A stretch of DNA of 64,000 nucleotides, taken from contig NC_135997.1 in assembly GCF_048128805.1 (NCBI RefSeq), positions 20,806,815-20,870,814 on the forward strand, written 5' to 3'. The notes below the pieces were generated by a model. It was given only the letters and a program-made list of their open reading frames with translations. It was not told the DNA's origin and did no database searches. This document shows positions 2,776 to 64,000 of this stretch, piece by piece. The first letter of the stretch is position 1. The number at the start of each line of letters is the position of its first letter. Origin of the DNA: Centroberyx gerrardi. Lineage: Eukaryota; Chordata; Actinopteri; Beryciformes; Berycidae. Position numbers and translations under genes: made by a program.

Positions 2776-3427
2776 GGGAGACAACATCAGAAACTATAAA
2801 TTAGAGGCATATTTATTTGCAGTCCTATAATGAATGACTTGAACCTGTCCTAAATGTGCCAGAGTGTTGATAGGGGACAGGACAGGTGATCATATTCCTA
2901 CTCATCTCATCTGAGCTTGCCTGACAGTTTACCAGAGTCTCCTTACATAGTTTATTTCTTCTGTTTCTTCTTTGTATATTCGTGTTATTTAGCCTATAGA
3001 ATTCAAATTCCAATTTGCTTTATTGACATAACAAGTATTCTCATATATCTGATAGAACAAATGGACTTGACAAACTGTTAGATTGCCTAAATAATGACAG
3101 GCCTATATTACAGTCCAGCATACTTTGTAAATCTACATCTCTGGGCGACATTGCGTTTTCTGATTTGTACAAATGTAGCGATTTCTTATGCCGGGAATAG
3201 TCAAAAAATACTGTAAAAAGTTAAAAGTCACCTCAAATTTGGTCTCTGTGCAGTTTAATGACCTCAACAGCATACTCACTACATAGTCCATAGTGCTTTG
3301 CGGGTTGCATTACGACAGATTTGACGACTCTTTCAACTAGTTTCCGACGTACCGTATTACGGTTTGCTTGACTACACCAAGGAGGTTCTAGTAACTTACT
3401 GCTGCTGCTAATAGTGCCTGGATCGAA

Positions 3428-15286
<11,859 letters not shown>

Positions 15287-16107: not shown

Positions 16108-16653
16108 ATGAACCAATATCAGATTTTAATCAACGACTGTCTCATTGGCACAAAACATGTAGAAACGGCAGCACTGCTGCTAGCAAAGGATGCTTCAATT
16201 ACGGCCGCATCGCCAAGGTGTCAGGTAGGTCAACAATGCCTAGCTTCACTAATAAAGTTCACAACAAGTAAGGTAAGATAAGCTAGGTAAGCTAACTTTA
16301 CTGACAAAACTTTTGAGCTAGCTCACTCATTAACAACTTATCCAAGTATAAGTTTGGTTTATAAGGATATGAAGCTAACGTTAACATTAACGGCTACCTG
16401 TTTTGGGTTCAGATTTATCGTTAAGCTGTTCTTCACAGAGTAGCCGACATACTGTATGTGCATGTCTGTCAATGTACGCGCGTGTATATAACCAGTGATG
16501 AAGCGTAGTATAAAATGAAAAGCATTAATTTATGCCCTTTCTTCATATAATTTACATCAGTGTGATAGGCCACTATTTACTATGAAGTATAACTTTACAT
16601 AATTTATGTCAGCCCTAAAAAGGTGAGTAAACTGAGTTCTGGTGGATTTATGT

Positions 16654-16695
<42 letters not shown>

Positions 16696-19600
16696 ATCGT
16701 CCCTCCACAGATAAGTCCCCAGCAGGCTCAGTTGTTCACAGACTCCTTCAAATACACGTCCACCACCAGAGAGAAAGGCCTCCACTACCAGGACAGACAG
16801 TACACCTGTGTCCGAGCTGACCACAGCTCCATCTACTGCAAATCTGTCAGTCTGGTATCATGTCACAGAATGAATGGAGGGAGGGAGGGAGGGAGGAATG
16901 GATGGTTTCATGGAGGATCTACAGATGGATGAATGGATCGTTGATGCGTGTATGGAGGGATGATGAGATAGCTGGCTGCTTTGAGGAAAAAATAGAAAGC
17001 TTGGTTTTTTTTCTTTCCTTCCAATTGATTCTATCTACTGCAAATCTGTTGGTTTGACACTTTACCCATGTGATGGTGGTAGGGGGGGGGGGAGATGGAT
17101 GGACCAGAATGAATAATTGGTTTATTTACAGGTTTTTGGTATTTACAAGTCATGACCATTGATATTAAAAACAGTGATTCTACGGGATCCAGCTACAGGC
17201 ATTGAGCCTACCTGTTGCTAAAACTGAGGCCCGGAGTAAAACTTGCCAGTTGTGCAACCTGACACAAGGTGGCAGTAGAGCAGCTATTAGTAGTGGGACC
17301 TAAATCTCAACAAGTCCATTTTTTACTTTTGATCTAATGTTAATGAACCCACATGGAGTGTCTCTCACATAGATAGACCTATTGAAGGCTTCACAAAGTT
17401 CATAGAACCTCACAGGCACTGTGCGTATAACACATTTTATTATCATTTCCATTCAGTCACCAAAAAACATTGTATAGGCTGCAATGAATTGAGAAACTGA
17501 GGCATGGGATACATCATGCACAATTATATTGTTAATGTATCAATATGTTAGGGAAAAACAACAACCGACCTGCCCACAGTTAACAGTTAGCAGTACAAGT
17601 GCCTCTATACTGTACAGTATGGGGGCACAGTACTGTTCAGTATTATCCATAAGTGTTTTAAGTAAGCATCCTTATTTACCCTAAACCCGTGGTTTAATGA
17701 AGCTGTATGTTTTGTCTGATAGGATGGCCATGGTCTGATCATAGTGAAGACGTTGCTGTACGTGCTGGTGGCCACATACAATGACAACATGTACCCCAGT
17801 GTGTGTGTAGAGGCTGTGGAGAAACTAGGTGAGTGTAGTGATGATGATAATGAATAGATAGACTTTATGAAAGTAGATTCCTTTTATTTGAAATGCACAC
17901 CTTCACATAATGTGAATATATTGGTAAATTATCATACTTTCCAGTTACATAGAATAGATTACTTTGCGTAGATCTAAAAAAAAAAATCCCCCCCAAAATG
18001 TCTGTCCTTTAAAATAATGTTATGTAGCACAAAATGCACAAAATCTCAAGGGGGATAAATTCTTTTTTTGAGTAACTACAAATGGATTTTCTTTTATACA
18101 CACAATTCACACAAAAAGGCTATAATAATTCAACAATTCTCTCAGTTCAGCAGTGAACTAGACTAGCTCAGCTCATCATGAATTAATCTAGAATTGAAAT
18201 CTTTGACAAGTCCTCATTCTATAAACCTCCAGTGACGGATGACAAGCTATGACAAGTGATGAGACGGATGACTTCCTATTACAAAGGCAAATTCATCACT
18301 GTGTGTGTGTGTCTGTCTGTGTCTGTGTCTATGTCTATGTCTATGTGTGTCTGTGTCTTGCTTCCACACCTGTGTACCTCCATACACATTGTGTCAATAA
18401 CGGATGAACACACTAGCAAATAGAAGACTTTCTAACACATGGATTGAGGTTTTCTCTTCAAAGCAGCTTTTTAAGTCTTAGGATAGTGTATTACAATATT
18501 TTGATTTAGCCCCAATTAGTTTATCACCCTCACCAAATGTGTATGAAGTCAGGGTTGAAATCCAACACCATAGTTTTTCTCAGAGGCTTTCTTATGGAAG
18601 AGGATTAGGGCCACGTGAAAAAAAACATTTGAGTATTCTGACTTTTTTCTCAGAATTCTGACTTTAATCTCAGAATGTCAGAATCTCAGAATTCTGACTT
18701 TAAACTCAGAATTTTGACTTTAATCTCAGAATTCTGAGATTACTTTCTTGTAGCAGCCTAGTCAGGAAGATTTGACTGGGATGCCAACTTAAGGTGTCTT
18801 TCAGTGTGCATCCAGCTTTCTCTCAGGTCAATGCTCTCAGGCACAGGTTAGCTTCCCAGCTCTGTACAGGTAAATTAAGGGTTGGCCCAGCCCGCACAGC
18901 ATTGCCAGAGACATAACCGCATTTACAAGAGTACTGGAATCTTTTATGTCTTCTTCCAGAGATAGAACCAGCACTGGTGGCAAATAATTGACCACAAAAG
19001 TTGCCAGGTGAACCAAAATGATGTTAAAAGCTCTTCTCTTCATGTTGTTACCCCCTTCTCTCTCCTTCTCCCTCTCCCTTTCCCCTGGCCCTGGCTGCTT
19101 CAGAGACCAGAGAAGTGAGAGGCAGCAGTACAGAATTAAGCACGCTGTGAGAGCAAAGCAGGGCAGAATAATATATAGTTCCACAGTTGGCCATATCGAA
19201 GAAAACACAAAACAGACAAAGAGGATGCACCAGGCCAGACCACAACAGGCCACTCTGTACCTCAGGGGCTTGAACCTGTGGAAGAAAGCAGAGTACTGAG
19301 GTTCAGTAGATGAGCAGTATTTTTACAACCGTGACATTGTCAGACTGCAATTTCACTAGAAAGGCAAGTTTGATCATTTTACCCAAGAGTTCGTTACCTG
19401 ATGAAGATCAAAGGGTGGACCACTGCCAAGTAACGCTCCACACTGATACAACACCGGAACAGGGGGCGGCCGATCCATATAAAATTCCACATTCCCGGCG
19501 CCAGGATTACAAAGACACCACTAAAGCAGTACAAAGAGTAAACGGTGGCTGGGATTGTCAAACAGAAAAGGATCTCACAGATAGCCAAGTTGAGAAGAAA

Positions 19601-20986
19601 AAAGTTTGTAGCAAACAAATCTTTGGTTCCATGACTAATGAGCCAAACCATCCATACATTTGCTGGGAGGCCCACCACAAAGTCAGTGAACAGGGAGCTG
19701 GAGATGATAGACAGACTGGCAACAGTCTGGTCTGGTGGGTAGATGTGGCATCCGTTGGAGGGTGAGATGAGCTGAGAGTTGTTTAAAAGAGACACGTTGA
19801 GTTGAATAGTGGACATTGTCTTGAATGCTCACCGTATGTTCTCTCAGGTTGTAAACTTTGGTAGATCCTTCAATATCCAAAGCGCTTAGTCACGGATTTG
19901 CTAAGTTGGTGTTGAAATTAAGATAGACCACATTACACCTCCACCTTCCCTCCTAGTCCTAACCAGTGGAAGCAGCTCAAATTGACTTTTATCTAGTGAA
20001 AAGTCTCGATGTGTCTTGACACCTTGTGTCTTCACAGTCCCCTGCTGTGGCAGTGCTTTCTGTCCTGCTCACCTGTGTTATTTATGGTTCACTTGTCCCT
20101 TTTACCTCTCTCTAGCTCAACACTCGTGACATGAAACATCTTTAAAGCAAAACAAATGCATAGCATGCAAATATCTTGATGTGACTGATGACAGTTGGTT
20201 AGTAGAGAGCTGTGGATAGACAAATTTGCAAGCAAAACGTGCCTTTTGCAAACTGCACTCTTATGCAAACTGCCTTGTTCATTTATCATTTTCATAATTT
20301 CACTGGTAGTTGTAATCTTTATTCATGGTGTTTATATTCTCAAAACAATGCTACAAAGCACTTTTCAATAAATAAATGACATAATTATTACGCATTCAGC
20401 CAGCCATCTTGTAGAGGGAGCAATCAGGTCGAGCTTTAACAGATAGAGTGCTTCAGAAATACAGGGATAGTATAATGAGCATGCACTTTTACTTTTGATA
20501 ATTCAGTAAATACCTTTACATCAAATACACACTTTCTTGAATGGTGGGCTTTCACCAGAGCACTATTCCACAAGAATATTTCTACTTTTAGTGAAAGGTA
20601 CTAGGTAGAGCTTTTTGACATCAATAAATCATTGCCACATTAATTTTGAGACATAATGTAGTTACTGTAAACAAACAAGACCATCAGTGAGTAGATTGGA
20701 AGCCTCTACGTTGCATTTTATATTGTGTGCCACGGGTTGGATGGCTCAAGTTCTTAGGAAATCTGTTGGATTGCTTTGTGGCACAAAGGGAGATTGCTTT
20801 TGAACACAAAACAGGAAGAGGGACGCTGTTCTGGCAGTGCAAATGGAGCTAAAGCTTTCAGAGTTTCTGGCAGATGAAAAAAAATCTTTAAGTAAAGAAT
20901 TTGTATACTTATTCCATCACTGGACTAGAGACTGATCATGATGAATATCTTTTACAGCGGAGTACCTGAGAGAGAAGGGAAAGTGA
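16108..20986 (+). CDS. pfn4: Profilin-4, 4 exons
   Basis: Family knowledge: PFN4 is a divergent profilin, mainly of male germ cells, with weak actin binding and phospholipid binding. Seen: exons 16108-16224, 16711-16845, 17723-17828 and 20958-20986 join in phase into 128 aa, one residue short of the human protein. Matches include LIGTKHVETAALL, TREKGLHYQDRQYTCVRADHSSIY and IVKTLLYVLVATYNDNMYP, with terminal EYLREKGK before the stop. Exon 2 has two in-phase donors: GTCAGT at 16846 (chosen, since it gives the same spacing as human) and GTATCA at 16855 (adds three residues). AATAAA at 21098-21103 ends the transcript. It follows gcfc2 in tandem with an ~820-bp gap. Intron 3 (17829-20957) carries an antisense receptor gene. 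Confidence 0.93.
18633..18742. repeat. ~20-bp tandem repeat with palindromic core
   Basis: Five to six copies of a unit near CTCAGAATTCTGACTTTAAT, each containing the palindrome CAGAATTCTG, some degenerate. Located in pfn4 intron 3 about 100 bp beyond the receptor stop codon, so it may fall in the receptor's 3' UTR. Confidence 0.85.
18837..19816 (-). CDS. Class A (rhodopsin-like) G-protein-coupled receptor inside pfn4 intron 3
   Basis: Seen: two minus-strand exons, 19816-19398 and 19275-18837, join across a GTAACG donor and TTCTTCCACAG acceptor into 285 aa. TM1 (ASLSIISSSLFTDFVVGLP), TM2 (FFLLNLAICEILFCLTIP), TM3 ending in VERYLAVVHP in place of DRY, TM4 (GLAWCILFVCFVFSSIW), TM5 (PCFALTACLILYCCLS), TM6 (LATFVVNYLPPVLVLSL) and TM7 (GLGQPLIYLYR in place of NPxxY) are all visible. 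The exon break falls in intracellular loop 2. The second extracellular loop is almost absent. Intracellular loop 3 is a run of Arg/Glu from a CT repeat. The motifs look most like delta-group (purinergic-like) fish receptors, but I do not recognise an orthologue and name no ligand. It lies wholly inside the last intron of pfn4, antisense. Confidence 0.85.
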
Positions 20987-23849: not shown

Positions 23850-31661
<7,812 letters not shown>

Positions 31662-32966: not shown

Positions 32967-34011
32967 ATGTCGACTCAGATTTGCAGGCTGGTGGTTCTGG
33001 CGATGCGCTCTGCTTGCTGCCACAGCAGTAGACCTCGTTTGCGGCAGGCAGTGTTGGCTCCTGTGGGCTCATCTGGACTCTGTGTTCCTGGGGCCCCCAT
33101 GCCCCAGAGAAGGGCCTACAGTCTCGACTCTCTTTCCTCGGGTCCCGGGCGGCCCACGCTTGGCCCCAACTCCCAGCAGCATCAGAATGAGAGGACCTCC
33201 CCCTCCTCAGCCCTCACACACAGGAACCTGTCTGCTGTGGCTGTACAGGTAGGTTACTGTCTCTCTGTGCTATGCCACTTTTTATGTACATATGCTACCT
33301 CCATTCATAAATATGTTCTTATTATCATAGTGCTAATTAGAACAGTAATGTACACATTCTGTACATGTTATCTACAGCTATGATTTGAATATATTTGATA
33401 AGTTGTATTATTTTTACAATGCATTTCTGCACACCTAGACACTTTTTGTACATATGTATAGCCCTCTGTAGACCAGTTAATGTGACTGCAGCACATTTTG
33501 CGTCTCCTGTATAAATGCTGTATTTTCACCTATTTGCATATTCTCATTTTATCACATTTGTTTTATATGTAGATATTTTTCATAACTTATTTCGTACTAC
33601 ACAGTTTTTTTTATATCATATCATATATTTTGTATTTGTAATCCATCCTTTTACATACTTTCATTTCTACATTTCTACTTGTTACACTGTTGAAACATAC
33701 ATGCATATGTATATATGACCCTCTTTTACTATATTATTATTCATATTCTATCTTTCTTGGCTGTATCCTGTTACTATTTGCCACTGTAGTGGCCCAATTT
33801 CCGGGGGGATCATCAGGGATCATTAACGTTTCATGTTATCCCTTATGTTAATATTCCATTATCAAGAGTTTCTTGGCTTCTTAACTAAGTGTGTGTGTGT
33901 GTGTGTGGAAAGAAATTATGAGCTCAGGCAATAAATTTAGGAATACGGACAGAAAAATAATGATATACCAACGTTCTGAACATATTCTGACCTTATTTCA
34001 ACTATGTTGTT

Positions 34012-34077
<66 letters not shown>

Positions 34078-35760
34078 TCCAGGGCCAGTGTCGTCCTCTG
34101 TGCCGGTATGATTTCCTGGACATCGGGGAAGTAGAGGAGAATATCCGCCAGGCTCAGGCCTGTAAAACAATCAGACGCTTCATAGTAGATCCACACCTGG
34201 CTAAGCTGGTAACACAGCACCTAGGACCTGACCTGGAGGACACCAAGGCCGCTATCTTCGAATGTAACCCAGGTGTGTGTGTGTGTGGGATAGAGAGAGT
34301 CGGAGAGAAATTGAATTAGTTCTCTTGGAAGTTCAATCTTGTTGTGCAAGTTTGAAGAATTCCGATTCCTATCTGTAAGCAGGCATCTTTCATTACACAT
34401 GAAAACTGACTTGACAGCTCTGCTATTTGTGTGTGTCTCTCTCAGGCCCCGGGGTGCTGACTCGAACACTGCTGAATGCTGGAGCTCAGAGAGTCGTGGC
34501 TCTGGTGGGGGACAAGTTCTTCCTACATGATCTCCAGGTAACAAACACACACAGGCAAACACCCAAACATGCGTATGTATAATGGTAATGCAGACATTTC
34601 ATTGACTTCCATCCATTTTCCATCCACTGGTAAATTCCTTATCCCAAAACGTACCCCAAGTTTAACCAATCCCTAGTTCTAACCTAATCTGAAGTCTAAC
34701 CCTAAAATTACCAATTTTTAAAAGGTATACAAATAAAGTCAGAATTTAGGAAGATTTTCCTAATCATGGTCTTTATAAGGATGGAATTGCAAAAACTTGA
34801 GTTGGTGGCTGGATGGCCTAGTGGTTAGTGATGTTTTCCCCCAACCATAGACACCTGAGTTTGATCCCCATACCTGCCGAAGTATCCTTGAGTAAGATAT
34901 TCGACTCCTACCTGATCCCATCTCACGCACACACAACCTGCCTGACCCTGCACAGCAACCAGAGGGCAGAAAGAGAATTTCCCCCTCAGGGAAGGAATAA
35001 AGTATATGAAAATTAGAGAAATGTGTACTCTATGTTTGATTTTTCATAGAATGTGTCTTTCATTTAAATTTAACACCATAGATGATAAGATTAGCCATCA
35101 GCAAGTTAGATGTAAAAATAAATGTATGAAAACATGAATTCTGTGTGGTAAATGGTAATAAATATGCTATACAGTTAAGTAAAGATGTGCAAGTCTTGGA
35201 GGGTTGATTGAACAGTCACCCAGAAGTATTCCATTGTGGCAGTTGTAAACTGGATGCCCATTTTATGTGTATTGATTCCAATTGAATAAATAAATGTTTC
35301 ATGTTGCAGGAGCTGGAGGGTCGTCTTGACGGTCAGCTAGAAGTGGTCCACTGTGACTACTTTAAACTGGACCCCATCGGCAGTGGAAACCTCAAACCCC
35401 CTGTCATGTTCACTGACAAACTCTTCACTGACCTGGGAATATCAGAAGCTAGCTGGACTGATGGTGAGACAAAACACACACACATACAGACTGGAAACCT
35501 CAAAACCCCTCAGTTCACTGGCAAACTCTCGCACACAGACACTCATCAACAATGTCTGCAAGCAAAAAACACACGCATTTACATTTATGTCTGTATTTAC
35601 AGAAATTGTACAGGCATAAGCAATAAACATGGTAATGTTTAACATGACTTGCTAGTTATGTAGTTTGTTGATAATTAAATGTTGTAAAATCTTAAATGAA
35701 TGAACACTGTGCATTGTTCAGGGTACCATCCCTCTTATGTGTCTTTGCTGTTTATGTAAT

Positions 35761-41804: not shown

Positions 41805-58515
<16,711 letters not shown>

Positions 58516-63477: not shown

Positions 63478-63550
63478 GGACTTGTTGGTCTAGGAGAATG
63501 ATTCTTTCCTGGGATGTGAGAGGTCTTGGGTTCAAATCCCAGACAAGCTC
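63478..63550 (+). pseudogene. tRNA-Pro-like sequence (pseudogene or SINE head)
   Basis: TTGGTCTAGGAGAATGATTC matches the D arm of vertebrate tRNA-Pro, and GGGTTCAAATCCCAG the T arm with its B box. The anticodon loop would read CTGGGAT (GGG, proline-type), but the anticodon stem has a T-T mismatch and the acceptor stem (GGACTTG/CAAGCTC) a mismatch and a wobble. Probably not a functional tRNA. No T-run terminator follows directly. Confidence 0.6.
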
Positions 63551-64000
63551 ATGCAAATAAAGTCTCTGTAACCTTCTGGGGCCCTGGTGTTCACATTTGC
63601 TTGTACAGTTTAAAACTAAACATTAGAGCACAGACACGGCAGAGGAATCTGAGCCAATGGGTCTGTTTCTCCTACTCGGAACATCTCAACCACTAATTGT
63701 CACCTTAGCCCTACATTTTTCCTCTCACAACTGCTTTCTGCAACAAGTACAAAACCCACTTTGTGTCAAATGCACGAGATGTAGTGTATCTGAGGTTTCA
63801 AATCTGTTAATCAGCTTCTGCTCAAAATTGTGCATTGGCTGAATTTAAACCAGGTCAAGTACTTTGCAGTGCAGCTAGTCACCACTATACCACCACTGCA
63901 CAAATGGAGGCCAGCTTTCTGCTTAGAAATGACCAAGAACCCAGGTTGTTTGTGGTAGGCATATTAGCATTGGGTTAAACAGTAAGGGACTCCCACTTCT

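Follow-up and report, generated by a model that had tools for sequence, protein, structure and literature searches.

A probable two-exon class A receptor gene on the opposite strand of the third intron of a pfn4-type profilin gene of Centroberyx gerrardi

Results

The host gene and its third intron

The window analysed here, a 64-kb stretch of Centroberyx gerrardi DNA, carries on its plus strand a profilin gene with four coding exons, located at 16108-16224, 16711-16845 (with the donor GTCAGT), 17723-17828 and 20958-20986, the last being given up to the stop codon. Together, these exons encode a protein of 128 aa, which matches the Pfam Profilin family with an E-value of 4.7e-35. In view of human PFN4, this gene is presumably pfn4 rather than another profilin, and we refer to it as pfn4-type. 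Mammalian PFN4 is described as testis-expressed (PMC2694148; PMC12452346), and one review presents zebrafish PFN4 as a predicted gene of unknown expression and function (PMC12452346). Within the host gene, the 27-nt stretch at the end of exon 2 that includes the donor (16828-16854) has an 85% copy some 200 bp further downstream in intron 2, at 17030-17056.

Intron 3 of the host gene (17829-20957, plus strand) is 3129 bp long and contains a receptor gene. As originally predicted, the latter lies wholly within this single 3.1-kb intron and on the opposite strand, with host coding exons on both sides.

The receptor gene

The receptor gene comprises two coding exons on the minus strand. Coding exon 1 (19398-19816) covers the N-terminus, TM1 to TM3, the ERY motif and the start of intracellular loop 2, whereas coding exon 2 (18837-19275) covers TM4 to TM7 and a tail of 10 residues after a QPLIY motif. 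The intron predicted between them (19276-19397, minus strand) is 122 bp long, of the GT-AG type and in phase 2, with CAG/GTAACG at the donor border and TTTCTTCCACAG/GTTC at the acceptor border. Once the exons are joined, a single open frame of 285 aa runs from the start codon at 19816-19814 to the TGA stop codon at 18839-18837. In a trial of donor ends 19392-19403 against acceptor ends 19268-19291, two combinations showed GT/GC-AG ends, and 19398/19275, the splice of the original 285-aa two-exon prediction, was the only pair among the ends tried that kept the frame. The GC content is 0.476 in the receptor exons, compared with 0.402 in the receptor intron and 0.370 in the remainder of host intron 3. 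At codon positions 1, 2 and 3, it amounts to 0.455, 0.409 and 0.563, which resembles the values of pfn4 (0.488, 0.380 and 0.612). Just past the receptor stop codon, direct and inverted TCTGACTTTAATCTCAGAAT-type repeats form a small cluster at 18627-18752.

With regard to family membership, a Pfam-A search of the receptor protein at E ≤ 0.1 returned one family, 7tm_1, with an E-value of 1.2e-15 and 58.1 bits for a curated cut-off of 30.5. This match places the protein in class A, the rhodopsin-like GPCRs, which is the class that had been predicted. Among solved structures, 175 distinct sequences matched at E ≤ 0.001, and the best 60 of these 175 are all receptors, with their best-matching stretches within residues 18-182 of the protein. 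The top match is GPR4 (E 1.9e-11), followed by GPR183, the kappa opioid receptor, CCR2, LPAR6a, GPR17 and others. Judged by sequence, the solved receptors that come closest to the first half of the protein are GPR4, GPR183 and other purine-like and peptide receptors.

The similarity to GPR4 extends over TM1 to TM4 and stops around residue 156, while the second half is devoid of any significant match. Exon 2 alone (145 aa) gave no significant match to solved receptors, the best E-value being 0.21. At E ≤ 10, eight sequences were retrieved, each of them hydroxycarboxylic acid receptor 2; their alignments cover TM5-TM6 at the expected place, and GPR4 is absent among them. As its similarity to GPR4 does not run over the full length, the receptor is not assigned to GPR4 or to the proton-sensing receptors. 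A tblastn search of the 64-kb window with the 285-aa protein found no paralogue beyond the gene itself, the next match having an E-value of 0.21. In collections that do not include fish, exon 1 gave 3 pattern matches in viral contigs and 34 in bacterial and archaeal genome contigs, none of which was confirmed. NCBIfam, whose models are made for bacteria and archaea, returned no family.

Unusual anatomy of the receptor

Several features of the receptor are unusual, and these had not been noticed in the original prediction. N-glycosylation sequons are present at residues 7 and 12, TM1 carries GLPANV, and the end of TM3 exhibits ERY at residue 127. The hydropathy profile shows overlapping stretches that are compatible with seven helices, not all of them separated. 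The Ballesteros position numbers used below were placed on the receptor by eye. At position 2.50, E81 aligns with the aspartate of GPR4, so that the usual D2.50 is replaced, although by a conservative change. In TM7, the motif read by eye at residue 271 is QPLIY in place of NPxxY.

A further difference concerns the cysteine pair linking TM3 to the second extracellular loop (ECL2). The TM3 cysteine at position 3.25 is missing, the corresponding residue being V103 in a gap-free count or a proline in the GPR4 alignment, and no cysteine is found at residues 162-178. The GPR4 alignment contains five gap positions in the receptor between TM2 and ERY, of which one falls where TM2 ends and the other four within TM3, and the distance from the TM2 proline to ERY, counted from this alignment, is 38 residues in the receptor compared with 43 in GPR4. 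If TM3 is instead read without gaps, it carries arginine at 3.39 and 3.43 and proline at 3.40, which would be odd for a membrane helix.

A structural model of exon 2, built from a single sequence and of low confidence (mean pLDDT 60.4, pTM 0.40), contains five helices. Four of these are long and follow one another as TM4-TM7 would. In this low-confidence model, only WPTV (residues 168-171) is non-helical between TM4 and TM5. The link between these two helices may therefore be about four residues long, in which case the second extracellular loop would be almost absent.

The absence of the cysteine pair does not exclude the receptor from class A, since MRGPRX1 also lacks the TM3-ECL2 disulfide (PMC10286997). 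MRGPRX1 forms another bond instead, a substitute TM4-TM5 disulfide (PMC10286997), no counterpart of which was seen here, so the loss of the TM3-ECL2 disulfide does not by itself imply a loss of function. No MRGPR is present among the best 60 of the 175 full-protein matches to solved structures or among the eight exon 2 matches.

Discussion

Nature of the receptor gene

Based on these observations, the locus probably harbours a real class A receptor gene, made up of two coding exons and nested on the opposite strand within the third intron of a pfn4-type gene. We read its product as a divergent class A member of the purine-like kind, and its nesting as ordinary. The receptor most likely forms an independent transcription unit: a promoter of its own upstream of 19816, within the host intron or beyond it, would give rise to a minus-strand RNA, from which the 122-bp intron would be removed by the one splice within its coding part. 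The product would be a short seven-helix membrane protein with its two glycosylation sequons in the N-terminus. With regard to its clade, a survey of class A receptors across vertebrates describes 30 purine-group clades without human orthologues, 27 of which were novel in that work (PMC6504862). With so many such clades described, an unnamed receptor of this group would not be surprising, and our receptor is most likely a divergent member of one of the purine-like clades without a human orthologue, although this is a guess.

The losses described above could also have been retained by selection. The gene would then have been maintained within pfn4 in a lineage of fish and encode a conserved, functional receptor that dispenses with ECL2, with its disulfide and with the usual sodium-site pair, E2.50 and Q7.49 standing for D and N. 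Its pocket would be open, and it might signal constitutively or act as a decoy. We consider this proposal unlikely, but if the losses were common to orthologues under selection, they would provide a natural test of the minimal extracellular structure of a class A receptor and of which switch residues such a receptor needs.

Other explanations of the locus

As several losses occur together, the main alternative is that the receptor is losing its function: selection would have been relaxed recently, so that the frame is still open while the ligand loop, the disulfide and the switch motifs have eroded. The missing cysteine at 3.25, the connection of some four residues that the model leaves between TM4 and TM5, E2.50, Q in place of N7.49, the Arg-Pro-Arg in or near TM3, a stretch between TM2 and ERY that is five residues shorter than in GPR4 and the lack of a significant match of exon 2 to solved receptors all point in this direction. 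Against it, the 285 codons show neither stop nor frameshift, the splice ends are legal, and every missing stretch is in frame. Assuming a kappa of 4 and one indel per ten substitutions, with 85% of indels frame-breaking, an unselected frame would remain free of stops and frameshifts with a probability of 5e-5 once 0.1 substitutions per site have accumulated, compared with 0.7% for 0.05 substitutions per site, values that are only a guide, as they depend on the assumed rates and on the age of the gene. Overall, we judge a decaying receptor distinctly unlikely. It is exceedingly unlikely that the gene model itself is wrong, as a chance open frame or as a piece of a longer gene. Such an error would fit with possible 5' non-coding exons and with an ORF length that is not rare: when the pfn4 intron was simulated 300 times with a first-order Markov model, 9 copies contained a stop-to-stop frame of at least 161 codons and 14 one of at least 144 codons, so the length by itself is only mildly unusual. 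It is the 7tm_1 match, at E 1.2e-15, and not the ORF length, that excludes a chance frame, and the receptors among the solved structures, which account for all of the best 60 of the 175 matches, likewise argue against a wrong model.

A further possibility is that one of the two genes, receptor or profilin, regulates the other by transcriptional interference, and that the nesting has been kept for this reason. The geometry, with the receptor on the opposite strand and fully inside the 3.1-kb host intron, is compatible with this proposal, and such effects are reported for nested genes in one source (PMC3192792). In contrast, CASK mRNA is reported not to differ significantly in mice without GPR82 (PMC3247265), and one review gives the expression of PFN4 in fish as unknown (PMC12452346). 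We regard interference as very unlikely.

Comparison with known nested receptors

Returning to a real receptor gene in an ordinary nesting, its arrangement is of a known type and adds one more receptor to those nested antisense in introns. The original prediction had described nested antisense receptors as uncommon, which is misleading in view of the published cases, namely GPR34 and GPR82 in CASK, P2RY5 in RB1, and P2RY12 and P2RY13 in MED12L. According to a paper on nested genes, a gene in a host intron with the opposite orientation is the commonest arrangement (PMC3933685).

Like the receptor described here, GPR34 and GPR82 are class A receptors that occupy an intron of their host gene in antisense. 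The host and the receptors differ from ours, and the 450 million years over which the nesting is said to have been kept apply to the CASK locus (PMC3247265). P2RY5 (LPAR6), a class A receptor reversed inside intron 17 of RB1 (PMC2361346), has one coding exon in a 72-kb host intron, whereas two exons in 3.1 kb are observed here. P2RY12 and P2RY13 are likewise tabulated as different-strand nested genes of MED12L, again with a different host and different receptors (PMC3933685). Searches of the literature on pfn4 and intron nesting, and on pfn4 and GPCRs in zebrafish, found no report of a receptor/pfn4 pair.

Other features of the window

Ten proteins of the window were submitted to Pfam, and two of them matched (the profilin and a consortin C-terminus), the other eight having no match. 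Three frames, at 27280-27594 (minus strand), 33885-34319 (plus strand) and 3395-3844 (plus strand), may correspond to SCCPDH, TFB2M and a GCFC-type gene; none of the three pieces had a match in Pfam. The consortin C-terminus is encoded at 58141-58515 on the plus strand (Pfam E 3.1e-36), and a tRNA-Pro with the anticodon GGG was called by ARAGORN in bacterial mode at 63478-63551.
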